64,000 bases of DNA, taken from positions 12,199,501 to 12,263,500 of the forward strand of contig NC_088323.1 in NCBI RefSeq assembly GCF_910592395.1, written 5' to 3'. This document shows, in pieces, positions 9,773 to 56,480 of the stretch; the first letter of the stretch is position 1, and every line of letters starts with the position of its first letter. This DNA comes from Lineus longissimus (taxonomy: Eukaryota; Nemertea; Pilidiophora; Heteronemertea; Lineidae). A program made the translations under genes and the position numbers. The notes below the pieces were generated by a model that did no database searches, was not told the DNA's origin, and saw nothing but the letters and a program-made list of their open reading frames with translations.

Positions 9773-10848
9773 GTAAGTACATAACTGTAAACCAGGAAAA
9801 TTTAACTTTAATTTTGCTGACACCAATTCCGAAGATGAAATAATCAAACGAGTCCATGCTACTACTAAGGTGCCTGGTGTAGTAACTGTGCTGACGATGT
9901 AGTTTTCAAGCGTCTGCTATTAGTATTATTATGAGGGTCAAGGTCATATTATAATCGAGCGCCCTGATTGGTTGGTTTTCTGACTTCGCGACGCTCAGAG
10001 TTGGATCATAGCTACAAAGAGAAAAGTCTTGGAAGAGAGAGGATCGCCTTTTTTCGGGATTCGAAAACGCCCTAAATTCGAGAACGTCATGCCAGGAGTA
10101 TAGAAGAACAAACCTGCTGTTTCCACAGACGGACGACCTAGAGAAGGAAGGAGTGAGCAGCTTGTATCCATCGTAAAAAATGAACTTTTGAATCCAATCA
10201 AAACATTCAAAGTTTGAAGGCGTGGCCGCCATTTTTGAAAACTCCGTCTTATCGTAAACTTTTGAAAATAGCTAAATAAGATCATAATTACTTGGCAGGG
10301 GATCCCTTATAACCTTAAAAACCTCTCTTCCGAACTTTGGCCAATTTTAACTGAATTTTATATGTAGACGTCCATGTTTTAAGGACTTTAGTTAGACAAT
10401 TATGTTGACTTGTTTAGTCTGTTAACATATTATTATTACATGGCGGATGCACACTGTATAGAACACCGTTTTCAGTTACATACTGTTTGTGTCGGAATTA
10501 GCCGGCAGCACAGTATTTAGTGCATTTCACACTGTGCATTAACCAGTTGAATACCGGCGACAGCAATAGTCGGTAGCTATTGAAGTCAAGTTTTTACCGC
10601 TGCACAGTTTTTCGGTCGCTGCCTAATTATTTTCTGTACATAATTAGGTATAGCCTATAGTTATTTGATCGGTGTATGGAGTTGATATGGGTTGTATGAA
10701 ATGGCATGAGAGCTTCTAGTTTGACCTAAAATGTATAGATGGCGAAACTTTTGATTATTTTTGGTGCTGAATCAGGAAGTCTCTGAGAAGCACATGGCGT
10801 GTATCGTGACTTTCTGGATCGTTTCTATTGTATTATTTTACGTTGAAT
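9773..10848. other. No gene seen; upstream of piggyBac
   Basis: Only short unrelated frames. A CCGCCATTTTT motif lies near 10228. Piggybac-type ends (TTAA next to a C-rich repeat) were searched for by eye upstream of 10849 and not found with confidence. Confidence 0.35.
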
Positions 10849-23400: not shown

Positions 23401-23731
23401 CGCAACTTACGCTGATCGACAAGGACCTGAGGAACTCAACCTACATGAGGTCCCAGATCGTCCCTGGCAAAAGGTTGGAACTGACATATTCACGTACGAA
23501 AACAGATCGTATCTGGTAACGGCTGATTACTACAGCACCTTCTATGAACTCGATTACCTTCCGGACACTCTTACTGAAACTGTTGTGACGAAGGTCAAAC
23601 ATCACTTCGCGCGTCGCGGAATACCAGACACCGCCTGGGGTTTCTCTCACGTACGTAAGCCCAAAAGGCTCTTTCCAAATTCCAAATTCCAAATTCGAGA
23701 TTCGAGATTCCAAATTCTACATTTTTTTTGA
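20423..23731 (+). pseudogene. Ty3/Gypsy gag-pol, stop after gag, RT mutated, integrase truncated
   Basis: One frame runs from ATG 20423 to 23731 with a single TAA at 21020-21022. Before it lies gag (about 199 codons). After it come two zinc knuckles (CNYCGGAHVMKKSECPNRGK and CAACKGKNHFARKC), a retropepsin (FQVDTGATVNLIP), reverse transcriptase (VFSKLDLSSGYWHVE, FRWRCLPFGLS), RNase H (LENDACDYGIGS, VTDHKPL) and integrase with H-H-C-C finger residues (AGHLGIN, CETC) and the first core Asp (KVGTDIFTY). Integrase similarity ends at GIPDT (about 23630), before the second Asp and the Glu. At the RT active site the sequence is CISHDVVV: the first Asp of the DD pair is His (CAT, 22217-22219). The copy is therefore defective in RT and integrase. 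The TAA could be a readthrough stop, but is more simply another mutation. Confidence 0.9.
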
Positions 23732-30964: not shown

Positions 30965-33900
30965 ATGGACAGAGAAATTGCAACTTTACTGAATTTAAAC
31001 ACCAATGATTCCACTAATTTGTCTGAATTAGTGAATGATTTCTTTGGAGAATCATGGGAAGATGACAAGGAAAGTATTGAAAAGGATTTGAGTGAAGAAG
31101 ATGGGTCAGATGAGGATGAATTTGATCAAACTGTGGCTCCTTTCGATTCGGTCATGCAAAATGATGATGCAGTGCAATGCTATACTGATCACAGTCCTGA
31201 GAGTATCGACAGTGTTGAATGTGAAAAGGCCACAAAATATAGGTGAGTTGCTTGTCATGTTGTTTGTTGACATCCTGGGACTGTTTATCAAACATTATCT
31301 GACCTCAAACTTTTAATTAATGCTCAATCTTGCATGAAAAACGTAGTGTATACAACATAACAACATGCACATGATGATGCATGCTTCTATTTCTAATCTA
31401 TCAGATCAATCCAGCCTGGCTAGATGGCTAGGGCTAGACCTAGGCCTATGTCATATGGCCAATGGGTTTTCGAGTAAGGGTAGTGCTAGTATGTGCTCCT
31501 TCATGTTCTTTATCCTCTATTCCAGCTGTGACTGCCAGTATAATGATGGACAGCCATGTTATAGACGTTACACCCCTGAGGAAATGATTAGACGAAGAAT
31601 GGACATGAGAGAATTGACACCTAGTAAGTACAAACTCATCACATTTATTTGTCAGTCGTTCTTTTATTTTATATTGATACAATCTTTTGCAGGCAGTGAT
31701 AGTATTTCTTAATAACAATCTGCATTCATAGATAAACAATACAATGTCAATGAATACAGAATGAACTCTTGTGAACTTTGCTTCTTGATCTTCTAATCTT
31801 GTCACCTTTCCTAAACTCAACTTCATTTATTTCAGGAGATCAAATGCTTATCCTCCTTGGAAAGCTTTCAACAAATATCAATCTATCAGGCATAACTTCC
31901 AACTCTAAGAGAAAAGAACAAACACCACGAAAAACTGGTCAGAGAATGACGTACTGGCTCGAAAGTCGACAGATTTGTCGTGAAACTTTCAAATTCTTGC
32001 ATGGGTAAGTAATGACTGTCAGTGTCAAAATTGTCATTAGGCTATTCTAAAGGCATGATACAACAGAATGAACATGAATAGTAATGATCCTAGTATTGAG
32101 TCAAATCAATCAGTGCGATTCCTAAACAGTAGATTGTCCTTTTATTCTTCAACACTTCCGACATTTGAAATCATTTTGTGCATCAACAAAGGTAATGTTG
32201 ATTACTTGACTTGATTAACATTTGTTCTGATCAAAAGGTTTAGTTGGTTGTGATTGATAACCAGGATCTTACCTTTTCAGGATAGGAAGTCAGGGACGTC
32301 TGAACGGATTACTCGAGCACTACAGAGAGCATGGTATTTCGCCTAAGGAGAAAAAATCTGGTGGTCGAAAAAACAATAAGAACTCGTTTACCTTCGAAGA
32401 TGCCAAAAGTTGCTCGGTTTCTGACGAATTATGCTACCGAACATGCGTTGATTCTGCCTGGTCGAGTTCCAGGGTTCAAGCGAGATGACATGCAACTCCT
32501 ACCATCGTCACACACAAAGATTTCTGTGTACAATTGCTACAGAAAATCTCTTGAGGAAACAGGTTAGTTATTATCATAACAGGGGCATCATAACAGAGCC
32601 ATCATGAAAGGAAGTTAAATTGTTTTAGACTTGTCTTATGATGTGATGGTAATGTTCAGTTGTTGACTAATGGATATACTATTTCAAATGAGATTTTAAT
32701 GTTGATATCGATTTCCTTTTTTTTCAGAATGCCGGAGTATGGGATCTAGCAGTTTTTTTGACGTCTGGAAGCAGCTCTGTCCTTTCATCATAGTGTGCAA
32801 GCCCATGACTGATCTTTGCTGGACATGCCAGAACAATAACAGTCTTATCTTCAAGAGTGCCAACATGAACGAGGGAGATAAATGCGAGCACATCCGACTT
32901 CAGGAGAAGCATCTGCAGATCGTGCATTGTGAAAGGTCCCTGTATAACAACATGATCCATGAGGCTAAAAAGGCTTGTAAAGACAATGACATTCTGGAAC
33001 TGGCACCAAATGCTCCCTGCAGTCGCAACATCAGAATGCACTACTCATTCGATTATGCCCAGCAAGTTCACCTGCCGAGTAACCCCTTACAGCCTGGCCC
33101 CATTTATTTCCTAGTCCCTAGGAGGTATGGCCTATTTGGGGTCTGCTGTGAGGGGCTTCCTCGACAGGTGAACTTTCTGATTGATGAAGCTCATCTGATC
33201 AGCAAAGGCTCAAATGCAGTGATCTCTTTCCTGCACTACTTCTTCAGCAATTATGGCATTGGAGAATCAGACCTTGATCTCCACTGCGATAATTGCTCAG
33301 GACAAAACAAAAATCGTTACGTCCTATGGTATTTTGCATGGAGAGTGGCAACAGGCTTGCACAAGTCCGTTACCCTCAACTTCCTAATTGCCGGGCACAC
33401 TAAATTTGCGCCTGACTGGTGTTTTGGGCTTTTGAAAAGAGCATTTAAGCGACATGTGGTGCCATCGCAGAGTGTGCTTGCTGATGTTGTGAATGGCAGT
33501 TCCTCAGTCAACATTGCCCAGGTGGTTGGAAGGGAGAATGGTGCTTCTGAAGTCCCTGTGAGCAATTGGCAGAACTTCTTCAATGGTGCTTGCAAACCAG
33601 TCCCTGGAATCAAGAAGTATCAGCATTTTAGGTGAGTCAGCAAATTAATGAAAAAAACCCAAAGATATTCTTCTGAAAATGCTTTAATCTGACCAGTAAA
33701 AGAAATGAATGATACCGATAGTAATAATTAGCAAAGAGGACACTAGAATGCAGCTTGTTTTTTGTGTAATGATTATTGGAAGACAATGTATGGCTGGAGT
33801 AGATGCACATAACCTCTATAATGTCTGCAGATTTAGTTTTGAGAGAAGGCTTCATGCTACTGACTTACCACATGTTAAAGGGTATGAATTAGTGACCATG

Positions 33901-34403: not shown

Positions 34404-35612
34404 TAAGCAATATGTTCAGTATATCATTTATGGACATCACGCTATGAAAAAAGAGGGCAATGGCTCACTCTCGCCAACAGAAAGGGAAATAATTTTTCAC
34501 AAAAAGTGAAAATATGAAAGTAAGATTATATACAGTTCCTGTTGAGATATCTCTATGAAAATTGAGGATAATAAAGGTCATGTTATAGTTAATAATTGGT
34601 GTTAATTTCAGCTTATTCTATTGAGTACAAGTATGCGTTGCTATGGAATACATTTCACCAACTATGATTGCGATTTTCGCAACTTTTGGAAAAATGTTAG
34701 GTCCTAAATTCCCGATCTTCAAATCGCCATATCTTGACCAAATATGAACGGATTTTAAAGATCTATACATCATTGGAAAGCATCTTCAATGCCCTTTCCA
34801 GAAATGTATTCATCTCCATTTCTTAAAGGGCCTGTTCACTTTCGTTTTAAGACGTTAAGAAATAGGGTCGTTATGATCACCCTGAATGTTATGTCATTAC
34901 TAGGCCTATAAGGTGATTACATGACCATCTTAGTGAAGTTCGAGTCAGACTGCCCCATTTCCTCTCTGGGGGTGAAAGGTGTTGTTACCCTTTATAAATT
35001 GGTTATGCATTGTTGATTGAGATTACTTGTGGTTGCGTAATGTGCCTTTAGGCCTACTCTCTGGAGAATGTAACACTTTTCCGGATCATAGGGTCTTTTG
35101 GAAGGGAGGATTTTATCAATAATAGGTGCTGAGCTATTCAAAGACAGCACCTGCTTTGTATTCTGTCATTCAGACAATAGAGCTGTGCATGAATGAGAAC
35201 AATCTATTCAACAGATGAGTTTCTGCAGGGACCCTGTCCATGAAAATATTGTCTAATGTCTAGTGTTTGAATAGGGTCAAGGAAACCATAAGATGTTACA
35301 TCATCATTCCTAATAGTTCCTTTTGTCAACATTCCAGCATGCTTTCTACCATCAGAACACATTAGACGTTTGTGCATTGAATGAAGACTGCCAGCTTTAG
35401 ACATGGTGCTCCATGTATGTGAAGGTTGTGGGGCATTGATACATGAGAGTGGACAGCGAATTTCGAATCTACAAAGACATCTTCGGCATTACTGCATAAA
35501 TAGAGATTTGTTTGTAAGTATTATCCTCCGAACTATGTGAACCAATGCATTTCGAACATCGTCGATTTCCCGATTTGAGCAGCTTTGCCATCCTGTTGGT
35601 GAGGGTTTTGTA
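34404..35612. other. No gene seen
   Basis: AT-rich spacer. AAAGGGCCTGTTCACTTTCG (34825-34844) resembles, in inverse orientation, the subterminal sequence of the right end of the 12.25-kb segment (about 42637-42657), so a related end may once have been here. A run of 13 or so G residues lies at 35650. Confidence 0.35.
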
Positions 35613-35931
35613 TAGACCTCTTGCCTTTGTCCGATAAAGGGGCTGATGGAGGGGGGGGGGGGCTAATTCTAATGTCGTTTATACATTGTGAATCCCTATA
35701 TCTTAAAATCTACTGGACCGATTTTCACCAAACTTTTTCTGCTTGTAGACATGATAAACATTCTACAGAGATTTGTAAAAAAATGGTATGTTGCTGATCT
35801 AGACTTTCAGTAAAATGTTTGGCGAAAATCGGCCAAGTTGATTTTGAGATACAGGGATTCACAATTCATGAAGCCATTAGAATTTACCCCCGGCCAATCG
35901 GCCCCTGAGTCAGACTAAGGCAAGAGGTCTA
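35613..35931. mobile_element. 319-bp foldback MITE, TAGACCTCTTGCC ends
   Basis: Ends TAGACCTCTTGCC and GGCAAGAGGTCTA are inverted; inner arms also pair (GATAAAGGGGCTGAT with the GGCCCCTGAGTC region, CTAATTCTAATG with CATTAGAATTTA, TTGTGAATCCCTATATC with GATACAGGGATTCACAA). Divergence is moderate, so it is an old element. Confidence 0.7.
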
Positions 35932-36018
35932 TTCATTGAAGAGGGTGTGTACATACGACCCAGGCCAACAGGTGGCCATTGTCAAATTCGGGAAAGCCAC
36001 CATGTTTGAAAATCCTCT

Positions 36019-36194
36019 GGAGTACTGTAAACCTCTTAAATGTTTTTCTCGTTAAACGCAAAAATACAAGTAAAAGGCACGAAATTGTATTACTCTTATC
36101 ATGCATTTTTAGATTGCCATAGGAGACATTTGATTAAAGGGTGAAATACGGTCATCAAGTCACTAGCGAAAATAAGGGGGTTTACAGTATCTCC
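36019..36194. mobile_element. Short MITE with GGAGTACTGTAAACC ends
   Basis: The left end GGAGTACTGTAAACCTC and right end GGGGTTTACAGTATCTCC are inverted copies with one or two differences, 176 bp apart end to end. No coding content. Confidence 0.5.
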
Positions 36195-36608
36195 ACTAGT
36201 TTAGAAAGGGCTGCCAATCCAGCAATATGGGCCAGGGTGAAAACCAAAAAAAATGTACATGAAATGTGCATAGGGCTTCCTCTGATGAGGATGCTGTGTA
36301 CATTGTAAATGGGCTTTACAACTTGGAATAGTGATTGTTTATAAAAAGTGAAAACTACCAAAAACGTTCATAGATTCTTAGAAATACCATTACCGGGTGT
36401 ACTGCTTTTTTGTTAGGTTGTGTTTCTGATAACAAAACTAAAAAATATAGCGTAGGTTGGTAGTTTTTACTTTTTTTAAGATCAAAGATTCCATAAGGGG
36501 CTGCAGGGGTAAGGTCAGTCCATGTCCCAAGGGCGATTTCAGAAAATATCAGTCGATTGCAATGATTTATTGCACTCTTGAAATTGAGTAACACACGAAA
36601 TGCCTACT

Positions 36609-36880
36609 TACTGTATACACAATAATTTAATTCGGTATTGCGAAGATTATTCCCCGCGAACATAAATCAAAACAAGGAAAATTCTAGGAAAACAACCACA
36701 CAGTGACGAATTTCTGTGATTTTTTCAGAGTGATTAGCACCAATTCCATCGATCAGGAGAATATCGGAATTTTCTACAAAGATTTTTGGGATCCCATCGC
36801 GAACATTATTCCTCGCGAAATAGTCAGTGCAGGGCCAAATCGCGAAATCTTTCCTCACAAAAATATTTGCGTATACGGTA
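36609..36880. mobile_element. Probable MITE with TACTGTATAC ends, CGCGAA-rich
   Basis: Left TACTGTATACACAA and right TTTGCGTATACGGTA are imperfect inverted ends. The interior has repeated TCGCGAA/CCGCGAA words (36655, 36801, 36813, 36841). The end match is short, so confidence is limited. Confidence 0.4.
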
Positions 36881-37339
36881 TCTAAAACGAAGATTCCTGA
36901 TTTTTAGAGCAAAAGATTAGAAATACGATGTAAACATCATTTTACCCTCAAGGTTTACACCGGTGGTCAGTTCTTTCTCTGCCAGGTTTCAGTGTTTTAA
37001 AGATATAAAATGATTTTACCTAGCAATTGTAACATTTCAACTAAAATGTATTCATGGTACATTTTCATTTGATACCAAGTATCAGCACTTTCTGAATTGG
37101 TCCACTAGTTTCTGAAATTGCACACTTGGGACTGGTACTGCCATGCATTGGATGACTGCTGTAAGTTCATGAACCACTACTTTGTCAAAGCCTTCAGCTG
37201 ATTAAAACTAAAATCATTTGATTCTGGAGAAAAAAGGTATTAAATAGGGAAGGCATGTGCCTACAGCAGCCCACCTGCAAAGTGCAAAGTGTCATGTATA
37301 ACTCACTAGTAACTGCAACAATTCCTTGTTCTATTACAG

Positions 37340-40300
37340 GCTCAATATCACCAAGGTAATCCAGACGTCCAAGGCAATGGGACAATTGATGGTCAACATG
37401 ATGACGCTGATACTGCCACCCATGATGAACCAATCGGCACCGCCAGCCATGATGAACCAATGGACACCGCCAGCCATGATGAACCAATGGACACCGCCTC
37501 TTCTGATGATGAACCGGAGACTGCTGCTAACAACGACGTAGACTCTGAAACTGCCAGTCCCAACGATAGGCCTGGCCAAACCTCCAGCCGCAGTGAAAAC
37601 AACACTGATGGAACATATGTTTATGGGGTATCAGACAGTTGCTATGATGCTGAGTTTCCAAGACATGAATGGCCTGAGAACCGACGACGGGACTGGAATC
37701 ACATGCGAAAGCCATGGATGATGCCAGATTGGAAGCTAGAGAATCTCACAGGCATGAAAAAGGAACAGTTCTGGCTGCTTGTGTGGGAGCATCAGCAGGG
37801 GAGGACCCAGAAGTCAACCTGCCGTAGTTTGGATCCTTCTGCTAGAGTATTGTTGTATCGGCACAAAATGCGGAGTAACGTAGAGTTTCGTGATTTGGCT
37901 GCGTACTTTGATATAGGTCTGCCAACTGCCAATGACATTTTCTGGACTGAGTTGTGTGCTGACATTCTCAATAGCTCAAGCCTTCCATTGCAGTGGTTTG
38001 GTAACCTAAGTGACTCTGAGAAAAATGATGTTTACTCCAATATGAAAGGTCGAGAATCCCCCATCCATAGTGAGTTGCTGTCCTACTTTTCTGATCCAAA
38101 AGATGGTTCTTCAAGGATGCCTGTTGCTGCAAGCATGGATTCTAAAAAAGTGAAGGTGCAGAACTCAATGGATTATGAGCAACAGAAGGATTGTTATTAT
38201 TCCAAAAAGGGAGGGCATTTCATAACCTTTTCTACTTTGGTGGATACTACAGGACATGTGGTTTTGACACTTCCTGTGGCTGCAGCAGCCACCCCAAGGT
38301 GTGGTGATAGCAATCTGTGTGGTGTTGAGTTGCAATTATGCGAAAGTCAGGCTGACAGTGAGGTCGCACCTCAGGGACTTCTGTCTCTCCTTCAAGGAAC
38401 CTCGGACTACTTCGTGATACTCGCTGTGGACAAGGGGTACATCTATGTGCCACATAATGTAAGCCAACAAAATGTGACAAATCTGAAGCAGTGGTGTTCT
38501 GAGAATGGTTGCAGGCTAATATGGCCTAGTGAGGGGGATGAGGATATTCTCCAAGTTGATCCAACAAGTGGTAAAATTGAGATGACGGCATCTCCCAGCG
38601 ACCCTGTTCTCACAAAAAACAGCAAAATCATAGTTGGAAAGCTCAGATTCGGAGTAGAACAATTTCATGGAGCTATTGCTGATGAAAAAATCCTGGACAT
38701 AATACCTTATCAGTTCCTCCAACCACTTGGAGAACAATTTTGCAACAAATATGGTATACCTAATGATTATGTGAATTGTCCTCGTATCTACCTTATATGG
38801 CTAGCTGCAGTGTCACATTTCAATCAGTTCCATGCAAAATTCAACATAAAGTTCGTGGATGATCAGGAGCAGGTTCGCCTGGCGAAGCTGATTAAGCACC
38901 GACTCAACATCAGTAACTTCCTGCATGACCCCTCAGTCACTCTTCCTCCTCATGTGCTGCAGTTCCCTTCTGCCAGGAGTATTCAGTGGAACAGTGTTGA
39001 AGTCGGAGACATTGGTCAACTCAGAGACCGCCTTGACTTGCCGGCTCTTAGTGCACAGCAGATATACGAATTCACTCTTGGACCGTACTTGGTTCGTAGG
39101 GGTTGTTCTTACATTACCCATTGTAAGCAACTCGAAATCGGTGCTCAAATGGGCCAATTCGAAAGTATTGCTGAATACTGGGACATGGCACGTGAACTTC
39201 CAGTTACCACCCGTGTTTACTTCACAAATGTCGATGAGATTCCGGATGGCTGGAACAATGAAACTTACTTCCAGTGGCCCGAGACAGGAGTGACCATCAT
39301 AACGATGAAAATGCCATCGGCAAACAGGACGAACAGAAACCCGGGGAACATGAAACGGCCTCTAGTAGTGTTCACACAGAGTGGTTCATCGAGGAACAGC
39401 GAGTTGGAGAACTATCTAGGATTTACTGGGCCGCTACAGAGACTTTGTGGTTGGACTTGTGGGACAGCTGCCAAGAGGGACCTTGGCTCCCGTATGCTCA
39501 CGTCAGATGCCCATGTAGCCGCACTTCTGATGATACTGTGTGCTGAGGAGAGGTTTCGGGATCCTGTAGTAAGAAAATGTCATCTAGCCGACCCAAAGCT
39601 GCCAGAACCCCTTCAGCCTCGCTACACTGCGCCAAGGGGTCGCACACCAGTTTTCCGTAGGACACAAAGACAACGCCCACCACAACAGAGCACAAGTCCC
39701 CAACAATCTGAGATCCCTGACACCCATGACTCTGAAGTGACCAACATTGCTGATGTGGACAGGAATGATGAGCCCATGCCGCCCCAATATCCAGGATCAC
39801 GACTGATCAATGACGCAAACATTTGCTACAGCAATGCTGTGCTCCAGTGTTTAAATCATGTGAATCTTGGCCAGCACATACAAGGTGATCAACCAAATCT
39901 TGTGGACAACACCTTTCTTGATATTTGTGCCAGGATGGCTGGACAGGGTGCACCTTTCTCTGTCCAGGAACTCATTACCACTCTGAATACCACAATTGAT
40001 GGGAGAGGGTATGTGCTAGGAGTATACCAGGATGCAGGAGAATTTCTAATGAGCTTGTTGGAAAAACTCAGTATACCTGAAGGAGTTCTCACTTCGTGGC
40101 CAGGGCAATTCCACTGCCCCCTGGGGCACATTGACTTACAGTTGGTGAGGGATGGCACCGTGTTAAGGATTAACGTTCCACGTGGCCCCCAAGCAGTGTC
40201 ACTTATCGATCTTTACCATGATCACTTTGCAAATTCAGGTATTCTCCAGGGTCACTGTCAATTCCAAGGACGAAATGGGAGAGTCTGTGAACGCCACTCG

Positions 40301-40600
40301 CAGGGGTTTCAGATCACTGTAGATGGACCTATAACTATAATCGAGGTCAACAGACGATCAGGCAATCAAAAGTGCATGACCAAGATTAGACCTCCAGAGG
40401 GAGGTACCCTAGATGGCAAGATAATTCAAGGCATCATGTGCCATTCTGGGGACCAGTGCAATGTGGGCCACTGGTTCGCCTATCTAAGAGACCCCAACAA
40501 CATCTGGTGGAGGATGGATGATGATAGGCAACCAGTGGCTGCATCACCTTGGGACCAACAAGGGAACAACTTTACCCTGAATGTTTTCTTTTTGGCCTAG
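37340..40600 (+). CDS. DDE transposase - SWIM-like - ubiquitin protease (USP) fusion
   Basis: A single long exon follows TATTACAG at 37339 and ends TAG at 40600; with residues counted from the ATG at 37460 the frame is 1046 codons, plus about 40 upstream in-frame codons from the acceptor. The N-terminus has 27-bp repeats encoding SHDEPMDTA. Residues 95-165 are a helix-turn-helix (LTGMKKEQFWLLVWEH, EFRDLAAYFDIGLPTANDIF). A DDE_Tnp_4/IS4EU-like core follows, with Asp227 (AASMDSKKV), Asp324 (ILAVDKGYIYV) and Glu400 (LRFGVEQFHGAI). Residues 660-695 (LCGWTCGTAAKRD, SDAHVAALL) resemble a SWIM finger. Residues 775-1046 are a C19 ubiquitin protease: LINDANICYSNAVLQCLNH (Cys789), YQDAGEFLMSLL, NVGHWFAYLR (His1004) and WWRMDDD (Asp). 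All catalytic positions appear intact and no stop or frame change is seen. At least one 5' exon is missing from view. Confidence 0.8.
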   Translation, partial: AQYHQGNPDVQGNGTIDGQHDDADTATHDEPIGTASHDEPMDTASHDEPMDTASSDDEPETAANNDVDSETASPNDRPGQTSSRSENNTDGTYVYGVSDSCYDAEFPRHEWPENRRRDWNHMRKPWMMPDWKLENLTGMKKEQFWLLVWEHQQGRTQKSTCRSLDPSARVLLYRHKMRSNVEFRDLAAYFDIGLPTANDIFWTELCADILNSSSLPLQWFGNLSDSEKNDVYSNMKGRESPIHSELLSYFSDPKDGSSRMPVAASMDSKKVKVQNSMDYEQQKDCYYSKKGGHFITFSTLVDTTGHVVLTLPVAAAATPRCGDSNLCGVELQLCESQADSEVAPQGLLSLLQGTSDYFVILAVDKGYIYVPHNVSQQNVTNLKQWCSENGCRLIWPSEGDEDILQVDPTSGKIEMTASPSDPVLTKNSKIIVGKLRFGVEQFHGAIADEKILDIIPYQFLQPLGEQFCNKYGIPNDYVNCPRIYLIWLAAVSHFNQFHAKFNIKFVDDQEQVRLAKLIKHRLNISNFLHDPSVTLPPHVLQFPSARSIQWNSVEVGDIGQLRDRLDLPALSAQQIYEFTLGPYLVRRGCSYITHCKQLEIGAQMGQFESIAEYWDMARELPVTTRVYFTNVDEIPDGWNNETYFQWPETGVTIITMKMPSANRTNRNPGNMKRPLVVFTQSGSSRNSELENYLGFTGPLQRLCGWTCGTAAKRDLGSRMLTSDAHVAALLMILCAEERFRDPVVRKCHLADPKLPEPLQPRYTAPRGRTPVFRRTQRQRPPQQSTSPQQSEIPDTHDSEVTNIADVDRNDEPMPPQYPGSRLINDANICYSNAVLQCLNHVNLGQHIQGDQPNLVDNTFLDICARMAGQGAPFSVQELITTLNTTIDGRGYVLGVYQDAGEFLMSLLEKLSIPEGVLTSWPGQFHCPLGHIDLQLVRDGTVLRINVPRGPQAVSLIDLYHDHFANSGILQGHCQFQGRNGRVCERHSQGFQITVDGPITIIEVNRRSGNQKCMTKIRPPEGGTLDGKIIQGIMCHSGDQCNVGHWFAYLRDPNNIWWRMDDDRQPVAASPWDQQGNNFTLNVFFLA

Positions 40601-40840
40601 ACTATGTTCATAAAAGCAGTTTGACTAGATTCATATGATTCATATGATTCTGACGTTCAATTTTTGGCCTAGACTGTGTTCATAGCATACTTTAGCTGGA
40701 TTCAAGTCCTGGATTATTTGTTGTTCCATTGGATACTGAGGTGATTTGACGTTTGGCCTAGACTGTGTTCATAACGTACTTTGCTGGATTCAAGTCCTGG
40801 ATTATCTTTTGTTCCTTTGGATTACTGGTGATTCTGACTG
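40588..40840 (+). repeat. About 90-bp degenerate tandem repeat beginning at the stop codon
   Basis: Three copies start TTTTGGCCTAGACTRTGTTCAT at about 40589, 40662 and 40753, the last two continuing GCTGGATTCAAGTCCTGGAT. The first copy includes the last codons and the TAG of the USP-fusion gene. Confidence 0.7.
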
Positions 40841-41468
40841 TGGATAAACTGATGGGGATGTGACTGATGATTCCATTTATGGGCAGTTGATTGCAGATAG
40901 GTAGGACAACCTATACCATAAGTTTTATTCTCTAATAACCAGTGTCGTTTTTCAATTTCAGATGCGTTGCAGGCTTCACAGTAGTATATCAATAGCATGG
41001 CCAGACAATAAATTCCTCGGGCAATTAGAAGAATAACAATGTTCAGATGACAATTGCTAAAATAGTTTGGGTTTAATTTTGAAAGAATAATGTGTTAAAT
41101 TAGATATGGGGTTATTTGTCACAAATAACACTTCCAGTGTATGTCTCAGAGGTAATCATCATTTCATTTGCCACACTTGACATCAGTGCCACCATTGGAG
41201 AAAAGATAAACAACTGGTCATAATCTGCCACCTCGCCCCAGGCAAAAATGATTGATCGCACATGCGCACTTGGGATGTTTTCCTGGTTTGCAAATTCTGT
41301 CCGATTGTTTCTCTTTACTCCTATGGTGGCGCTGATGATGATTTTGGCAACCTCATGTAATCAAATCCATTTGTTGTTGAACTAAAAATGTATGCCTTGC
41401 ACGGTTCAACACAAGTTCTGTTCATAGAAGAAAAAACAAACTACAATAATAAGCTATATCACACTGAT

Positions 41469-41500
<32 letters not shown>

Positions 41501-42676
41501 ACATCAAACCAGAAGGCCAAATGCTTGCTCTTTCCCTTATCATCTAAAGCATTCATTGCCATACAAAGTCCTCTTATTGGTGTGTCTGTCCCCTAAGTCC
41601 ACTGGGTAGTTTTCACTGCATGCAGTTCATTGTGGTGGGTGCTTCACAATTGAGGGATTTCAAGCATGCCTAGTATAGATGTGTTGACAGTAGGCTTATG
41701 AACACCAAACTATACTTTTCTCACAAATGAAATGGTACTGGTATCCGCTTTCATATTTGCCATTGGTTTCATTTGTTAGAAACACCCTGAAGAAAAAAAA
41801 GGCAACAGGAAGACTGGTGATATCCAGGGGAAAACCCAACTCTTATCTGTAGCAAATGCGATGAAATGGTTCATTTTATTATCATTTCTTTTCTTTCTGA
41901 TGTCCATTTGGATTTGATCACTTTTATAGACATCATTCATTCTCATTATGCCCTCTTGATGAAGAACAAGTCATTTTTATGAAAGAGTAGGGCCATATTG
42001 AGATTCAATACATTTATTACGACATTTTTAGGAGCTAAAAGTAAAGAAAACTATTAGAAAGTTCATCAGCAGTAGGCCCAGGTAACTCAAACAATTGGCT
42101 TTTTGTGTCCTTCAATAGGAAAATGATGGCAGCTCAGCACATCTGCCATTCTATAGGCCTATGAACCCTAGGCCTTCATTGTTCACTGTGGCCATTGTTG
42201 TCCAGCACGCAGTGCACACCCCCACAGTTGAATGGTTCAATCTGCTGTGTTACAAACAGATTCATGTAATACCCAACTCGAAGTAATGAATGGCTATTTT
42301 TAAAATGGCTTGAGGAATTAATAGTTCATCTGAGGTCAACTCTCCCTTAAACGATGAATTTCAAAGTCATTTTTTGGGGTGTTTCTGATAATTATGAATC
42401 AAATTATTGGATTATTTGGAGCTCTCATGACCGGCACAACCCATTTCTGAAGTAATATTTAGAAAATCATGGCATTTTCACAAGGCCTAATCAGTTCAAT
42501 TGTTCTTTTGTCTTAGTTAATGACAAGTAAACGAATTGTCATTTCACCCAATATTAATCATTTTAATCATTGTATCATCCCTGCAATTTTCAAATTCCTC
42601 GCTTTTTCCGTTTTCCCAAGGATCACAAAACTTGGTCACAAAACGAAAGTGAACATGCCCTTTTACCCAAGTGATC
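40841..42676. other. No gene; contains a 30-G homopolymer
   Basis: No coding domain was found. 41470-41499 is an uninterrupted run of 30 G residues, which is prone to polymerase slippage and G-quadruplex formation. The remaining sequence is AT-rich and leads to the right terminal repeat of the 12.25-kb segment. Confidence 0.45.
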
Positions 42677-43795: not shown

Positions 43796-45726
43796 ATTTT
43801 TCAACAAGCTATCACTAAGGCGTATCGGTTTACGAATAGTGATGTGATCGATCTTTTGGAGATCTGGAGCGATTCAAGTATTCAGAGAAAACTTGACTCG
43901 AGCTATCATAAAACTTCAGTTTTCAAAGACATTGCTACCAAATTAAACGCACCTGCTGGCGAAGGTATCGAGCGTAATTTTGATGGTACTGCCGTGTGTA
44001 CTAAGTTAAAGAGATTAAAAACAAAATACAGACAGGTGAAGACTGTTTACAATACTTCAGGACAGGCAGGCAGGAGAGCCCGTGCCTGGAAGTTTTTTGA
44101 AGTAATGGACAGGGTGTTGGGGGTTCGTCCAGCGAATGCCCCAAATCTGATGAATACTTCGTCTTCTGCCGGCACTGCAAGCACTCAAGAAGATGATTTT
44201 GGTTCTGACATAGATGAAGAATCTCATGAATCGGAGACGGAGGCCAGTCAATCTCCGCTGACTGGAATTAGTGGAAACAGCTCATTCAGAGGTAGGTAGG
44301 CCTATATGCCTATAGGCACCTCATCAGATAAATAGATTAAGGCATTCTAAAGTGACACACAGAACAGAGTAGCCTATGCACGTAAAATCGAAACTGGTAA
44401 AACATGTCTGAGGAAGGGGAACAGAGTCAAAGTCGAGCTAGCTGCTAGCAACCCTGATAAGCGTCGAACCATAATTCCAATGTTCTCTAACAGCTATAAT
44501 TGAAGAAGACGCTGAAAATACAAGAGATTTCAGCGACAATGAACAGCCTAACCCTACCCCTTGCAGAAGTGTGTTTGTTGGATTATCGGATAATGAGGAC
44601 GTAAATGATTTACCAGGTAGGTTGCATCACAGAAAGAAGCAGAAAGCCTTCAAATCAAAAGAGAGTGTATTGGCTGAAAATATCCCTGAATGAAGCTTGC
44701 CTTGGATGGATAGTAGTGAATTAGAAGACGGCTGCAATAAATTTCGGCAGGCCTCATTTTTAACCCTCCTCGGATACCAGTAATCACTTCTTGATTTGAT
44801 TAATAAATTAATAAGCATCAAGGATCAAGTTCCTAAAATAGATTAATATATCTAATAATCAGTTTCTTACTTCAGCACTTGATACATCGCCTGTGCCATT
44901 CACTAGTAAAGGAAAGGGGAAAGGAGGAAAGGGGTATGGAGGAAAGGGGAATGGAAAGGGCACCACAAAAGTGGTATTCCCAGCTGCTACGTCTGCTGCT
45001 GCACCAGCACGGAAGAAGAAGAGGAGCCGAATTGAAATTGCTTGCGAAGCAACAATTGGTGCCTTCCGCCAGTCACAAGATGCCGCAATGACAGCACTAC
45101 GCAAAATAGAAATACAGAGGCAGGAGAAAGATATTAAATTCGAGAAGAAAAGACTTGAGGTAAATAAGAGAGTTGTACATGCAGGCCTAGTTGCATTTAA
45201 GTCATGCCTCACCTGTATTGGTTGTAAGGCATAAAATGGAGCCATATCTGAGGGAAGAAAATTAACAAAGAAGTGTCTGATGTGATTGTGATTGTGATTG
45301 TGAATGCTTCACTTCTCTGTTCTTTTTTTCTCATTTTTGGTCTTTCATGTACTTGTAATGAAAATATTGACACAGTTGTTTATATTGCAGTCATAGGAGA
45401 GGATGAGGATGCAAGACAGGGCTCATGAGGCGTCTATGATGAAGATGATGATGGAAATAATGTCACGCACGAACAATACAGCATCCATGACGCCACCATG
45501 TCTGCCAAATTTTGGACACCAACAGGCAATTCATGTACAAGCACCTCAACCTCAAATGCAGGAATTCCAGCCACCATCTAGGAGCTTCCACCTGCCGAAA
45601 CAGCAAATACCACAGCAAGTAGCCCAAAAGCCACTGACCATGCCGAATAAGCCTACAGACCCTAAAGCAGACAGGCAAAATTCTGAGAACATTTTTAACA
45701 TTTTCAGTCAATATCAGAACCTGTAA
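43796..45726 (+). CDS. Myb/SANT-like (MADF-type) DNA-binding protein, four exons
   Basis: Exons: about 43796-44291, 44494-44616, 44876-45159 and 45397-45726, joined in consistent phase. The first contains the trihelix/Myb-SANT-like domain (RFTNSDVIDLLEIWSDSS, SVFKDIATKLN, VCTKLKRLKTKYRQVKTVYN, RAWKFFEVMDRVLGVRP). Exon 3 encodes a Gly-Lys repeat (GKGKGGKGYGGKGNGKG), a basic RKKKRSR signal and a helical tail EKDIKFEKKRLE; exon 4 continues ERMRMQDRAHEASMMKMMME, and then a Gln/Pro-rich end. No ATG is in frame at the beginning of the domain, so a short first exon is missing. Proteins of this type are often the DNA-binding partner of Harbinger-like or other transposons, but they also occur as host genes. 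No disabling change is seen. Confidence 0.75.
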
Positions 45727-47647: not shown

Positions 47648-50600
47648 ATGACTGGGCACCGTGGTCGGCCAAAAAAGACTGGAAAGTCCCATAACAGAAG
47701 CAGCAGTACATATGCTTCCGATACGAAAAAGCGCAGGGCCGATGATCATGAAGGAACATCGCTGTTCAGCTTTTTTCAGCGTGCCCCAAAAAGACCTGCC
47801 GGTATGTACACAATGGACAATGCTTCTTACATGCATTGATATGCACATCACATAATTTATGCAAGCAACACCTCACCTTCTTTACGACGCCGTTCACTAT
47901 TTATCGGCTGCATCAACCAACCAATCCGTCAGCATGAAAGCAACTGAGAATGTGAATGCCATTCAGCATGTAACGATGTGTTAGGCCTTTGCGTTTTGTG
48001 TGGACATCCTCACATTGCTATGGTCGGATCGATTGGAAGGTGCAACCCCCACTGCAATGGCCGACGCTGGTTGGTTGGCTGCTTTGGTCACAAAATGTTT
48101 AGTAAACACTACCACATGCGTTGGCCACCAAGCTGGAACATGTTAACCCTTTGGCTTCACTACTCGCACTACTGGCGTACTATTTCACGCAGGCCTAGTT
48201 ATACAACCTGATTAAGCCTAAACTGATTTTTTTCTCATTTTATTGAACAGGGCCAAGTGATGTGAGTTCATATGCTGATACTGTTGCTGCTGATGTCAGT
48301 TTGGCTAATGATGATGGTGATGATGACGTCCAACCCCAAAGCCCGGGTGATAATAATGATGCTGCGGATCTCAGTTTGGATGATGCTGATGATGTCCATG
48401 ACGTACAACCCCAAAGCCCAGGTGATAAAAATGATGCTGCTGATCTCAGTTTGGATGATGCTGATGGTGATGATGACATCCAACCCCAAAGCCCAGGTGA
48501 TAACAATGACGCTACTGATGTCAGTTTGGATGATGCTGATGATGATAATTATGACGTCCAACCCCAAAGCCCACGTGATGATACCGATGCTACTGATGTC
48601 AGTTTGGATGATGCTGAGGTGTGTAATACTATAATGGTTATCGTATAACTAGTACTTGAAGTAACATGCTCAGCTCTTGGCAACCTCTGCCTTGTGTCTA
48701 AATTCTTAGACACTTTTAACCCTTGAATACAATCAGCTGTCCATCAGCATACATGTACATATCTGACTGAATCAAAAGTAGACGCTGCAATCAATTTTTC
48801 CAGGTGTCTTCTGATGCTCAGGCATCTGATGTGAACTCAATTAGCAGTGGAGGTTATAGTCAACATGAAGAACTGGGTGACTCGTCAGGAGATGAAGGTG
48901 ACCATGATCAGCCGTTATCACGATCTCCTGAATACAAGAAAGATAAGAGAAGACGGGATGACTTGACTCTGCTCAGACTATACCCGGACTTTCTTCTTGG
49001 TCCTGATGGATTCTTGTGTCGGGTCTGCTCCGCCTTTGCCTCACCTACAGACAGGAACAACAAGTTATTAAAACCATTCATTTCAACAGGCTCAGATTTG
49101 GGGGATCATCCCTCTCGTCGTCTTCAAGATCATTTGACTTCAAAATTGCATTTGAGATGTCTTGAGAATGAAAAAAACGTCAAAGTGTTGATGAGTAAAG
49201 GTGGGCTGGCTGGACTCTTCGACAAAAGAGCCCAGAGCACTGTGGAAGCCAAGAGGGCATATTTTGGTCAGCTGATGAAGTCCCTGCATTACCATGTACA
49301 CCATTATATTCCGAAATCGCAACTTGCTGAGTTTATTCCTTTCTTAGCAAATGATTTGGGGGAGAAAGTCACCAAGGACTTTCTGGAGAAGAATGGTTCC
49401 TCAATGTATGGCACATACCTGAGTGCAAGGTCAATTGATGATCTCTTGAGCTCCTACTCGATCTATTGCCAGAAAAAGGTAAAGGAGTCATTATGTTCAG
49501 CTGAAGTCGCCACAAATTACTCAGATGACTCGGATGCACATAACGACTGTGATGAAATGATATCTTTTCTGACGTGGGTGGACCCCAAGGAGATCTTGGG
49601 GACAATGCAACCTTATGCCTTCTTGGATATCAGGTCAGTTGTCCCTCCTGCCAATGAACCTGCAGAACCTGGTGTGACTTCACATTTCAGTGCCAAAGCC
49701 CTTTATGCTGCGATGAAGAGGGTACTTCAAGATGGCGACATCAAGCAAGAGCTGGTCAAGTACATTTGTTTTGATGGGACGAACACTATGTCTGGGGCAA
49801 CTGGTGGGGTGCAAAAACTCTGGCGTGACGATGAGCCATCAACCATCTACATCAATTGTCGGAACCACCAATTGGCCCTAGTGTTTGTACACCTTAAAAA
49901 GAGATTCCCTCCTATAAATGAATTCGACCAACTCCTGCTTGATATCTATCTCAGTATCGACTACAGCAAGGTGGCAAAAACTATGTTCAGCTACATTCAG
50001 GCTATCAATGGGGAAAACTGCCTCCACATTGTGAAGGTAGCCATGACCAGATGGCTCAGCCACTTCAAAGCTGTAGAGCGTGTTCTGGCCAAGTACAAGC
50101 ACTTGCTTGATACATTTGATAGTTTGTAATTGAAAACCAAGGATACAAAATACCAGAGTGTCAATCAGCGCCTTAGTGAACCAGAAAATATTGCCGTCCT
50201 CATCTTGATGCAATTCATCCTGGAAAATACAAACCCCCTGTCTCTTGTTCTCCAATCAAATGAGGCAAAGATGAGCTTGGTACTTGACCAAGTGGGTCTG
50301 CTGAATGACTTCTTGGAGGCTTTGCCTTCTAATCAGCTGTACAAGGACAGATGCCATGAATTCCTCCAGCAGGGAAAGGCCTACAGAGAAGACAGTGCAC
50401 AATTCATCCGGCAGACCAGGGGTCGTGACAAACCAGCATTTGATTTCGAAGAATTCAAGAAAGAATTCGTCTCCCCCTTCTGCAGTGCTCTGTCGGATGA
50501 GTTGAACACTGCCTTCTATGATGACATGAGCCCAGTTGTACAGAGCTTGCACAAACTCTTCATTGCCCCTGTCAGGGCCACAGCACTGTCTGCATCACTG

Positions 50601-51218
50601 TCTAGTGCTTCAGTAGATGTTCACCTGAAACGACTCAATGATCATTATCACCTGGTTGATGCTGAGGCAGAGGGGAATCATGATCATGAGACCCAGGGCG
50701 AGGCACCTTCTGACTTGGTCAAAGAGTATGATCTGTTCTCAAAGCATTTGTGCCTCATGAAAAGAAGGCATCAGAAAGAAAATGATGCAGAGACATCTTC
50801 TTGCTCCCAAAGGTTGGATAACAAAAAGAAAGAGAGGGAGAAGAATCCAAGGGCAGTACCACAATATGCTCTTAAAAAGATTGAAGGTGAACTGAGCAAC
50901 CTGAAAGAGAAAAGACTGTTGAGCCCCATTGATGTTCTGACATGGATGACAAGGGATGACTTGAAGCAAGTGTACCCTAGCGTCTGGTATTTCATGTCTC
51001 TGTCTTCAATTCTTCCCATGTCAAATGCTATATCAGAAAGGGGGTTCAGTTTCATGCAGCTCGTTTGCAGAAAGCATCAGGGATCAATGAAGTCTGATAC
51101 CATTGATAAACTACTGAGAATTAGATTGTTCCCATTGCCATTGACCCAGGATGCAATTTCTGAAATAATTCACATTTTCAATACTCATTTTAACAAGTCA
51201 AGATACATCCAACTTTGA
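47648..51218 (+). pseudogene. hAT transposase (ZNF862-like), three exons, one in-frame stop
   Basis: Exons 47648-47801, 48251-48618 and 48804-51218 join in phase (GTATGT/GAACAG, GTGTGT/TTCCAG). Exon 1 encodes an AT-hook-like RGRPKK and a GTSLFSFFQRAPKR motif that resembles a PCNA-interacting peptide. Exon 2 is an acidic coding minisatellite. Exon 3 has a TTF/BED-like finger (GFLCRVCSAFASPTDRN, RRLQDHLTSKLH), the hAT core (YICFDGTNTMSGATGGVQKL, NCRNHQLALVFVHL, MTRWLSHFKAVERV) and a C-terminal dimerisation block (YPSVWYFMSLSSILPMSNAI, SERGFSFMQL, DTIDKLLRIRL). One TAA at 50127-50129 interrupts the frame; everything else is open. This is therefore a recently inactivated copy, or a readthrough gene. 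Confidence 0.85.
48331..48618 (+). repeat. In-frame 75/78-bp acidic coding repeat
   Basis: CAACCCCAAAGCCC recurs at 48331, 48406, 48481 and 48559. Units are 75, 75 and 78 bp, all multiples of three, and encode QPQSPGDNNDAADLSLDDAD-like peptides inside hAT exon 2. Confidence 0.85.
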
Positions 51219-53278: not shown

Positions 53279-56200
53279 GTAAATCGAATACAAGAAATCG
53301 AACGGTCTGGCCCCTGGATGATGAAGTGTATGATCTGTTGTTTCGATACTTGGATGACGACAAGAAGTGGAAAGAAGCAATATCGGTGGTTGAGAAAAAG
53401 GCCTATCGAAAGCGTCAGTCTGGGAATTATTTGATTCTAAAGACAAAAAATCATCTGACTGGCATGGAAGAAGAAAGAATTGTTGATATAAAAACTCACA
53501 GAATTGTACCAAGGCAATCGGAATAGGCAGACATTGTTGATTTTTATTTCCGTGCTTGTAAAGGATTAGGCGCCAGGAAACTCTCAATAAAGATTTTGGA
53601 ACAATATTGCGGCATGGGAGAACGGCTTGTCAGCAGACATCTCGAAAAGATTCAGGCTCACCAAAGACGAAAACCGGTGTTTTCAAACAAGGCCCCTCTA
53701 CGCTCAGTCCAAGCAAACGGTTTTAAAATTGATTTCCCTTTCAGCTGAACTTGAACCCATACTGTGTCGAAAGTATTTTTGAACCAGAGTGTTATTCATA
53801 GCTGCTCTGCGGTCGGTCGTGCCTCTAATTTTCACAACACTCAAATTATCATTTTTGACAAAAAATTTGCCCCCTGATAACGTTCCTATGGCTGTACCAG
53901 AACAGTTTAAACCCCAGTGCAGCTGCCGGCCCAGTCTTTAGTCATGTCCTTTGAAATTAGCCGAGTCATCCTCAGTAACACACCTGTTGAAAACCGGTGA
54001 CAGGGATGATCGCCCCCCGGAGCCGTAGTCCAGGTATATTGTTCGCAAACTGAATAAGCCGCATGTCAAGAGACCAATGACTGTCAATCGATGATTCGCA
54101 GTGGATTCTGTTGTTACCCGAACTATGTGCGCAGGGGACTACCATCCCTTGCACACCTGTAATATTGCAATACCTAATTTACGAGGATTTCTAAAACATC
54201 GTTATTCTGCTTTCAGATCGAGAGATCTCATCAAACCTGGAAGGAAAAGCTGAAGTTCGACCTAACGGAAATGTGCCAACAGGGCGGGTCGTTGAATTGG
54301 GTGGACCAATTACCCATATACGATCAAATATACAACTCTTCTCCGCACGAAGCCTTTAATGGTGAGCATATTCATCGGTCGCGAACCCCATTGTCGAAAG
54401 ATCTGAATAAAGACACCCGCCTTTTTTCAAAGGGGAAATGGTCGAAATAATACTACTTTGCAGACAAGTGACTTTCGGAGGGACCCATGAAATGGACTAG
54501 GAATTGGAGCCCCCTTTTTTGAAAGTTCTAGAGTCAAGCCCCCTTTCTGGTTTCTATTATGAAACCGAAAACTGGTACATCAATGGGTGCAATTACAATA
54601 GAAATCCTGGGTACAATACTACAAAGGTCGGGTCCTACCTCATCAAAAACGGCAAAATACATGAAAAGGCCTAAGTAAAAATAAGTAGTTGTCGAATCGT
54701 CACGTGCTGGGGAATCAGGAGTACATGTACATGCCAAAGAAGTGCTTTTGAAAATTGATGCTCCGGGAAGTCGGAATATGAAAAATATGTACACACACTG
54801 CATTAATGGGGGGGGGGGAGGGCCGGACATCTTTGACTCCCCCCCCCGCTGAAAACGTGTCTGCTGTAATATTTCGTATTAGGTGTCTTTTTGGCCATAA
54901 TAGATACCTTCTAAGAAAAATTAATTTAAATCGTTTTTTTTTTCTCAGATGGACTGAGCCCATTTGAAGTTTACTTCGCACGTAAACCTTGGTCACCAGA
55001 GAAGATTCCTCATGATGGCACAGCAGCATCTGATGACAGTGGCACGGAAAACTTAGAAGACGACGGGGAAGAACCTGAGGTAACGCATCCACTGATGACA
55101 AGTGTATATTTTTTTTAGTCAGGACATGCACACATCATCTCAGAATGTAAGCAAATAGAGCCTGCTATACGTTTTTGCCACGAACATGTCAGCATTACCA
55201 ACTTTGCCCGCCCATCATTTTTGTCTATAAACCACTCTCCCTTACTTCAAATGAATTTTTAAGGATCAATACCCAAAGCATGGCAAGGATTTGAAATTCA
55301 TATATCAAAGACCTAAACCTCACATACATACAATACGCGTTGACGGCCATGCGGAAAGGTTTTAATGAAATAGTGAGTGGCCAATAATTAAAATAAAAAT
55401 ACAAACAGCTACAAAAGTATCTTCTTTCTCTAGGTAATGATTGAAGAACCCACGGTTGCGGAAGTTGACGCTTTTCGAGAAGCTGCTGAAGCCATCAGGA
55501 AGAAGGCAAAAGGAGCTTCCAAATCAGCAGTCGAACGGATGATCAAAAGACGTCTAGGCAAGAAACCACCAAGTACGTACGAGGTCGGAGATCAAGTCTA
55601 CGTTCGGGTCAAAGGCAAAGATAAGGGAGTAAAGCGAGGAGGACGAAAACTATCGGTGCCAAACGCTGTCGAGGGAACCGTCATAGCAGTAAAGAAATCT
55701 AGATACCGGTATAAGGTTGCGTATAACCTGGATGGAGCTGACGAAGAGAAATGGTTCTCCGTTAATGACATAACATCTTTGTCTGTACAAGAGGAAAAGT
55801 GTCGAAAGAAAAAAGCCAGCGAGCCCATTGATTCAAGTTCGTTTACTAAGTATTTAATGAATTCAAGGCCTTTTTCTTCAGCTGAAGCCATGATTGACTT
55901 TATCAATTTACAGCAAGCTATCGATGAATCAATTCGTCAGTCCCGAGCTGTTGCAGATGTACGACAACAACTATTGACAAATGCAGGCGCACTTGGCTAT
56001 AGCATCAGGAACGAGATACCCGGTGACGGTAACTGCATGTTTGCAGCCATAAACGACCAGCTTCAGAGAGTTGGAATCAGTGACTTCACCACAAAATCAT
56101 TGCGATTAGGAATTGTGCATTATCTCAGGAAACACCCCGCAATGGACGACGGTTCGCCTATACATTTGTTCACAGACGGTAACTGCTCCTGGGAAGAGTA

Positions 56201-56480
56201 CCTAAGGCGGATGGCTAAGGAGGGAACGTGGGGAGACCATATCATCCTGCGGACGGCTGCCAAAATGCTCCGGATGGAAATTGTCATTATATCTAGTAGC
56301 CGTGAGAACAATAATCCTGTTATCATAACACCACCAAATCTCCCCCCACAAAGACATGTCATATATCTGGGTCATATATCTGAACTTCATTACATGAGTT
56401 TGGAACATGAACCTACACAGTCTGGTTCTCCTACATATTTTACTAACGAGACCACACCCAGGGCCTTACAATCCTTCTGA
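53279..56480 (+). pseudogene. Integrase - chromo/SH3-like - OTU protease gene, integrase core damaged
   Basis: The exon after TCTATCAG (about 53279) encodes YDLLFRYLDDDKKWKEAIS and YRKRQSGNYLILKTK. An in-frame TAG near 53524 is followed by ADIVDFYFRACKGLGARKLS and RRKPVFSNKAPLRSVQA, the region before a KRBA2/Ginger-type integrase core. The core segment carrying the first two acids is not recognisable between 53750 and 54216. Exons 54217-54361 (IERSHQTWKEKLKFDL, with the catalytic Glu), 54949-55079 (GLSPFEVYFARKPW) and 55434-56480 join in phase. The last has YEVGDQVYVRVKGKDKG and a barrel-like segment, then an OTU cysteine protease: EIPGDGNCMFAAINDQL (catalytic Cys), EGTWGDHIILRTAAKMLRME and LGHISELHYMSLE (His). 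OTU residues look intact; the integrase does not. Linkage to Ginger-type elements is inferred. Confidence 0.7.

Follow-up and report, generated by a model that had tools for sequence, protein, structure and literature searches.

A Lineus longissimus transposon that encodes a transposase fused to a ubiquitin-specific protease domain

Results

The locus and its features

The window analysed here is a stretch of 64,000 nucleotides from the nemertean Lineus longissimus (assembly GCF_910592395.1, contig NC_088323.1, positions 12,199,501 to 12,263,500 of the forward strand), and all coordinates below are window positions unless a contig is named. It contains a complete transposon whose main exon encodes 1046 amino acids in a single unbroken frame (37460-40600, plus strand); a preliminary description of the same DNA had already stated that the frame is uninterrupted. 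Residue checks and alignments support the reading of this frame as a transposase fused to a ubiquitin-specific protease (USP) domain with its active-site residues in place, the transposase half being, as judged from the aligned residues, a divergent DDE transposase. The features of the element are as follows, with a slash marking an exon boundary.

34825-34827, no strand: target site, left half, AAA (as in 11 of 11 insertions)
34828-42660, plus strand: whole transposon, 7,833 bp, delimited by copy identity and paired termini
34828-34848, plus strand: core of the 5' terminal inverted repeat, GGGCCTGTTCACTTTCGTTTT
35403-35513, plus strand: predicted first coding exon, with a BED/C2H2-like zinc finger (MVLHVCEGCGA...HLRHYC), ATG at 35403 and donor TTT/GTAAGT
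35514-37339, plus strand: predicted intron, 1,826 bp, GTAAGT...TATTACAG, phase 0 on both sides
35609-35935, no strand: imperfect palindrome, 327 bp, within the predicted intron (inverted repeats I1 and I2; self-match in four of the four long copies compared)
37340-40600, plus strand: main exon, with the transposase-USP fusion from the ATG at 37460 to the stop at 40600
37826-37942, plus strand: putative helix-turn-helix (HTH), HTH_Tnp_4-like, residues 123-161 (Pfam E 0.0096, 15.9 bits, under the cut-off)
38138-38659, plus strand: DDE catalytic core, residues 227-400 (D227, D324, E400), from residue check and alignment
39797-40597, plus strand: USP (peptidase C19) domain, residues 780-1046, from Pfam UCH (E 8e-12) and PDB profile matches
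39809-39826, plus strand: Cys box, N784-C789, reading LINDANICY, from residue check and alignment
40466-40525, plus strand: His/Asp box, residues 1003-1022 (H1004, D1020), GHWFAYLRDPNNIWWRMDDD, from residue check, PDB profile matches and alignment
42640-42660, minus strand: core of the 3' terminal inverted repeat, GGGCATGTTCACTTTCGTTTT
42661-42663, no strand: target site, right half, TTT (as in 9 of 11 insertions)

Copies, termini and insertion site

Identity of 99.7-99.9% to four other copies spans the element from 34824/34825 to 42660-42671. A genome-wide search for the terminus pattern, with at most two mismatches allowed, found 24 sites, compared with none for the reversed pattern that served as a control. 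Twenty of these sites form ten pairs, which mark elements of about 6.6 to 7.8 kb spread over nine contigs; two others pair as a short derivative on C3, which in its 3' part shares 80% identity with the element along 341 bp, and the last two are solitary. Eight loci of this 391-Mb genome, each on a contig of its own and one of them in the window, contain the complete fusion frame, and each of the seven other full-frame copies differs from the window copy by no more than four codons. The element has been recently mobile. The window copy differs from the other seven full-frame copies at codon 644 of the fusion (39389-39391), with Ser in place of their Pro. Since the frame is intact on eight separate contigs, a join of two genes or of two pieces of the assembly is ruled out, and the preliminary description was right to treat the two halves as one frame.

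The 11 insertions that were compared, namely the ten elements and the short derivative, usually have the arrangement AAA[GGGC...GCCC]TTT; the two right flanks that depart from it read AAG and TTA, and AAA and TTT each account for about 0.03 of the trinucleotides in the window. In two sister subfamilies, whose termini are GGGGCTGTTC and GGGGATGTTC, four elements were compared: AAA stands on the left in three and TTT on the right in all four. The C13 insertion sits in a tandem repeat of which the adjoining unit is empty, and this empty site, the sole one among the 11 insertions in a search confined to sequence already retrieved, matches over 91 bp at 96.7% (71 bp to the left of the junction and 20 bp to its right, the latter with 19 of 20 identical, after which the right side diverges). 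The match is gapless over the junction, where it reads GAGTTTCAAAA/TTTCAATTGTA, indicating that the element entered between AAA and TTT and that nothing was duplicated. Indeed, the flanks of the 11 insertions contain no common duplication, and a TA duplication, initially suspected from the flanks, is ruled out by the C13 empty site.

The transposase half

The three acidic residues proposed in the preliminary description, Asp227, Asp324 and Glu400, are at those positions and are invariant in all 11 rows of the alignment, which include two homologues from outside the genome (P0001 and P0002); wherever coordinates were given, the DDE_Tnp_4 match begins at the first Asp. The HTH and DDE_Tnp_4 domains described at the same time have fared less uniformly: both score below the Pfam cut-offs in the window protein (E 0.14 and 12.2 bits for DDE_Tnp_4), but HTH_Tnp_4 recurs in four, and DDE_Tnp_4 in three, of the five members of the transposase alignment. 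A match to DUF2719 (E 0.0042 in the window protein; two of the five members), weak like the HTH and DDE matches, was taken as chance. The transposase part comprises about 735 residues; a comparison with solved structures returned a single match (E 0.98), the NCBIfam search returned no match, and Pfam gave no match to the rve integrase domain in the fusion protein. The SWIM-like finger that had also been proposed is not upheld: there is no CxCx5-30CxH pattern and no Pfam match, and the Cys in RRGCSYITH is not conserved.

For comparison, five PHIS-type transposases of the ordinary kind were taken from this genome; one of them has a THAP domain, and they match DDE_Tnp_4 with E values down to 1.6e-43. 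Aligned to these five with hhalign, the fusion family scores E 8e-4 with a probability of 24.6%; the alignment is collinear from the HTH to the Glu and sets D227, D324 and E400 opposite the known triad. This collinearity, together with the placement of the triad, supports membership in PHIS without proving it. No USP fusion was seen among the ordinary PHIS elements in the best 150 of 1317 DDE_Tnp_4 candidates, whose open frames do not exceed 635 amino acids, a survey that a USP on a separate exon would escape.

The USP domain

The preliminary description had reported a C19 USP with a Cys box, a QDAGEF motif and a His/Asp box, all of which are present. The Pfam UCH family, for which the cut-off is 23.9 bits, matches the entire protein with 40.5 bits (E 3.1e-10), and the last 271 residues alone (776-1046), for which such a match had been asked beforehand, with 45.7 bits (E 8e-12). 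We take N784 to be the oxyanion Asn and C789 the catalytic Cys, the catalytic positions being assigned from our general knowledge of USPs; QDAGEF starts at residue 857. The catalytic Asn, Cys, His and [Asn/Asp]-Asp are retained in all seven of the 11 aligned rows that have a whole readable USP (the window copy, L011, L019, L014, L015, L017 and P0002), a count that leaves out L013 (end lost), L028 (Cys box deleted), L027 (frame lost) and P0001 (no USP). The finger is reduced to C-x3-H...C...C (C886-x3-H890...C933...C943), and the only exception among the readable whole USPs is L014, with C933Y.

A profile of four USP domains, one row of which has one wrong letter ahead of the domain, was compared with solved structures and matched USP14 (2.9e-10), USP36 (3.1e-10) and a protein named 'Ubiquitin carboxyl-terminal hydrolase 6' (PDB 1vjv; 1.5e-6), presumably yeast Ubp6. 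These are the best profile matches of the domain among solved structures, although in the three alignments shown the matched stretches lie mostly in the Cys and His boxes, and the finger of the fusion family is shorter than those of USP14 and USP36 and of C3H type.

Family, age and constraint

A search of the L. longissimus genome with the fusion gave at least 61 matches, among which intact or near-intact relatives are 44-60% identical over the aligned parts (L015, listed at 48%, hardly differs from L019, for which the listed value is 52% across the transposase part). With P0002, which carries the same transposase-USP fusion, as the query, at least 65 matches were obtained, and these cluster (same strand, gaps <2.5 kb) into at least 38 transposase loci; the counts are lower bounds as the best candidates alone were scored, and the cluster at C12:7300599-7305918, counted once, may contain two overlapping copies. 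USP sequence is present at all 38 loci, in the search table for 33 and in sequence further downstream for five, and at L051 about 25-30 residues of the C-terminus are all that is left. A USP-free subfamily, for which those five loci at first seemed to be candidates, was rejected, since the downstream sequence contains USP remains in every one.

In five comparisons with the window copy as the reference, three of them with broken copies (L014, L017 and L028), the proportion of synonymous differences (pS) is 0.77-0.82 and that of nonsynonymous differences (pN) is 0.23-0.37 in the transposase part, and the values in the USP part are 0.72-0.84 and 0.28-0.42. The linker of some 32-42 codons, our internal control, has a pN of 0.52-0.70, inflated by poor alignment, and a pS of 0.51-0.89. 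The USP is thus under constraint and the linker is not, which favours the view that the protease domain is used rather than passively carried. Trees of the two halves (seven rows) have the same major split, with support of 100 and 99, their other nodes being weak (31-79). The USP was acquired before the known subfamilies split and was then kept under selection.

Searches of a protein collection, presumably poor in animals, with the fusion, the transposase or the USP found only P0001 and P0002, and the search with the USP found no protein with a similar USP other than P0002. Viral and prokaryotic contigs, scanned with two short peptide patterns per scan, contained no relatives.

A predicted upstream exon

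Splice signals and similarity to relatives suggest that the gene of the transposon is probably longer than its main open reading frame, with a spliced zinc-finger exon. A likely splice acceptor (TATTACAG/GCT) lies at position 37340 and keeps the reading frame of the fusion. The predicted first exon gives a zf-BED match under the cut-off (E 0.017) and matches the start of the L046 subfamily at 51.6% over 31 amino acids (E 2e-9); outside the main coding region, it alone matched sister elements convincingly. In P0001, whether its contig is a transcript or not, the zinc-finger segment is contiguous with the transposase. We found no second open reading frame, YqaJ- or Myb-like, in the element, throughout which the longest stop-to-stop frame outside the main coding region is 110 codons. 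The sister subfamilies have an extra open reading frame (L046:1437-2126 and L048:6646-7362) that encodes a C2H2 finger and a conserved domain, IC..G..A.PG.WP.....PPWTLP, with 34% identity between the two over 146 residues; this conserved domain was not found in the window element, where just the first-exon piece matched. The palindrome in the predicted intron is perhaps an old nested insertion.

Other elements in the window

The transposon is flanked by genes for a DUF7869 protein (32739-33635, plus strand; 5.6e-15) and a Myb/SANT-like protein (43844-44299, plus strand; 2.7e-08), and other mobile elements crowd the window. These are of DDE_1/Tc5 type (3819-5297, minus strand), rva_4 integrase type (6430-7446, minus strand), DDE_Tnp_1_7 type, which we take to be piggyBac-type (10828-12594, plus strand), a retroelement with reverse transcriptase, RNase H and an integrase zinc domain (21041-23731, plus strand), and hAT (50130-51218, plus strand). 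Further along, an open reading frame of 347 amino acids (55437-56480, plus strand) contains an OTU cysteine protease domain (Pfam 6.3e-14), and the in-frame stretch upstream of it looks SH3/chromo-like by eye; this is possibly the C-terminus of a Ginger1-like transposase, in which case the window may hold two protease classes of mobile elements 15 kb apart.

Discussion

What the USP may do

Given that the fusion places the protease at the transposase, and that the active-site boxes are under selection, the simplest reading is that the USP acts as a deubiquitinase in cis. We propose, with a probability of roughly one half, that the domain is an active enzyme that would shield the transposase and the complex bound to it. 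Tied to the transposase, the USP would remove ubiquitin both from that partner and from the proteins that sit at the bound ends of the element, such that the transposase-DNA complex would be spared degradation until insertion is complete. Retention of the USP in every copy of the family examined in the genome suggests that removal of ubiquitin helps the transposon, and the profile matches of the domain to known deubiquitinases also speak for this proposal. From these observations we infer enzymatic activity, ubiquitin as the substrate and self-protection as the benefit.

Several observations weigh against the proposal. On the transposase side, DDE_Tnp_4 stays below its cut-off in the window protein; on the protease side, the window USP sequence alone matches solved structures with a best E of only 0.0058, one of the eight full-frame copies has W1017S beside the His/Asp box, and P0001 (822 amino acids), one of the two outside homologues, stops before the USP. 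The broken copies and the poorly aligned linker count similarly against the estimate of constraint. Moreover, a USP fold can act on other modifiers or merely bind ubiquitin; according to the passage cited, USPL1, which has this fold, prefers SUMO (PMC8983731).

A role at the DNA rather than at the transposase strikes us as rather unlikely, but it deserves consideration ahead of other alternatives. The USP would then find its substrates among the proteins of chromatin or of repair (histone H2A/H2B, PCNA or others) where the element leaves or enters the DNA, steering repair or opening chromatin. Repair pathways are regulated by ubiquitin, the DNA-binding partner in the fusion would carry the USP to chromatin, and such a role was proposed for the OTU and Ulp1 domains of Ginger1 (Bao et al., 2010; PMC2836005). 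The present data do not separate this role from self-protection. The best profile matches are USP14 and USP36, neither of which we know as a dedicated histone enzyme.

It is improbable, in our view, that the domain has ceased to be a ubiquitin protease and now serves to bind ubiquitin or has SUMO or another ubiquitin-like protein as its substrate. The finger is cut down and the two aligned single-sequence matches to a solved USP are limited to the two catalytic boxes, as such a change of function might predict, but the Cys, His, Asn and Asp/Asn positions are retained across lineages. We regard as slightly less probable still a counter-defence in trans, in which the USP would disable a repressor of the transposon made by the host, either a ubiquitin ligase or a silencing factor: deubiquitinase-type domains do recur in unrelated transposons (OTU/Ulp1 in Ginger1, PMC2836005; VTD/OTU in Helitrons, PMC9741609), but there is no known target, and a USP tied to the transposase is more likely to act locally. 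Lastly, a passive passenger or an artefact of two joined genes, for which the sole support is the homologue that lacks the domain, is very improbable in view of the USP sequence at 38 of 38 loci, the constraint that the USP shows and the linker lacks, and the whole frame at eight loci.

Comparison with known systems

The AAA/TTT flanks and the C13 empty site are the published mark of Spy elements, not of ISL2EU. In the passages cited, Spy elements insert into AAATTT without target duplication, encode a transposase of about 700 amino acids with a DNA-binding domain and a DDE domain (PMC11304231, PMC4482050), and have hosts in three invertebrate phyla, Arthropoda, Cnidaria and Mollusca (PMC11304231). 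The window element shares with Spy (PHIS), for example cgSpy, the AAA/TTT target, the lack of duplication and a similar transposase length, and differs in its C-terminal USP, its 7.8 kb length and its predicted spliced zinc-finger exon; by its flanks and target site it fits a Spy-like element. The order of a putative HTH and then a DDE core is shared with ISL2EU and PIF/Harbinger, which, like Spy, belong to PHIS. ISL2EU is described as having AT duplications, THAP and YqaJ, and PIF/Harbinger as having TWA duplications and a Myb/SANT partner (PMC4482050). By contrast, the window element has no AT duplication, no THAP in the main open reading frame and no large second frame, and it has neither a TWA duplication nor, inside the element, a Myb/SANT partner that we could find. 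The IS4EU-like placement in the preliminary description was therefore roughly right at the level of the superfamily, but the flanks and target site fit Spy and not ISL2EU.

Transposon fusions with OTU, Ulp1 and VTD, and one Trichomonas C19 fusion, are already in print. As described in a passage on Ginger1, its transposases carry a C-terminal OTU or Ulp1 (PMC2836005); the window fusion likewise has its transposase first and a cysteine protease of ubiquitin or SUMO type after it, whereas the Ginger1 transposase is of integrase type, its target duplications are CCGG/CCGT and its protease families are different. Helitrons are reported to carry VTD and OTU deubiquitinase domains, with activities reported for VTD (PMC9741609), and similarly have a deubiquitinase domain inside the transposon's own open reading frame, but in a rolling-circle RepHel protein, and VTD and OTU differ from USP. 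Closest in its protease is XP_001314237.1 of Trichomonas vaginalis, mentioned in one sentence in 2010 as transposase_11 with Peptidase C19 (PMC2836005); it comes from a protist and has a different transposase domain, and the passage, from whose description alone the comparison is drawn, gives no element, termini or conservation. The view in the preliminary description that no transposase-USP case is well described thus mostly stands: that sentence is the only mention of a transposase-USP element among the literature matches listed, in a search that covered neither Repbase nor most subscription journals. Capture of other enzymes has been described for fungal transposons of several superfamilies, which carry TET/JBP dioxygenases thought to aid escape from methylation-based silencing (PMC12730594).

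More tentatively than for the role in cis, and at somewhat less than even odds, we suggest that the window element represents an undescribed Spy-like lineage with an active USP on which efficient transposition depends, either because it protects the transposase or because it remodels ubiquitin where transposition takes place. It would add a further deubiquitinase class to OTU, Ulp1 and VTD, and would be the first among USP cases to be described as a complete mobile element. Since the termini, the target and near-identical full-frame copies are in hand, a clean test in cells of the need for deubiquitination is possible. In the window element, protease and transposase are a single protein; OTU, Ulp1, VTD and now USP have been taken up separately by unrelated transposons, which points to ubiquitin as a general obstacle to transposition, or a tool in it.

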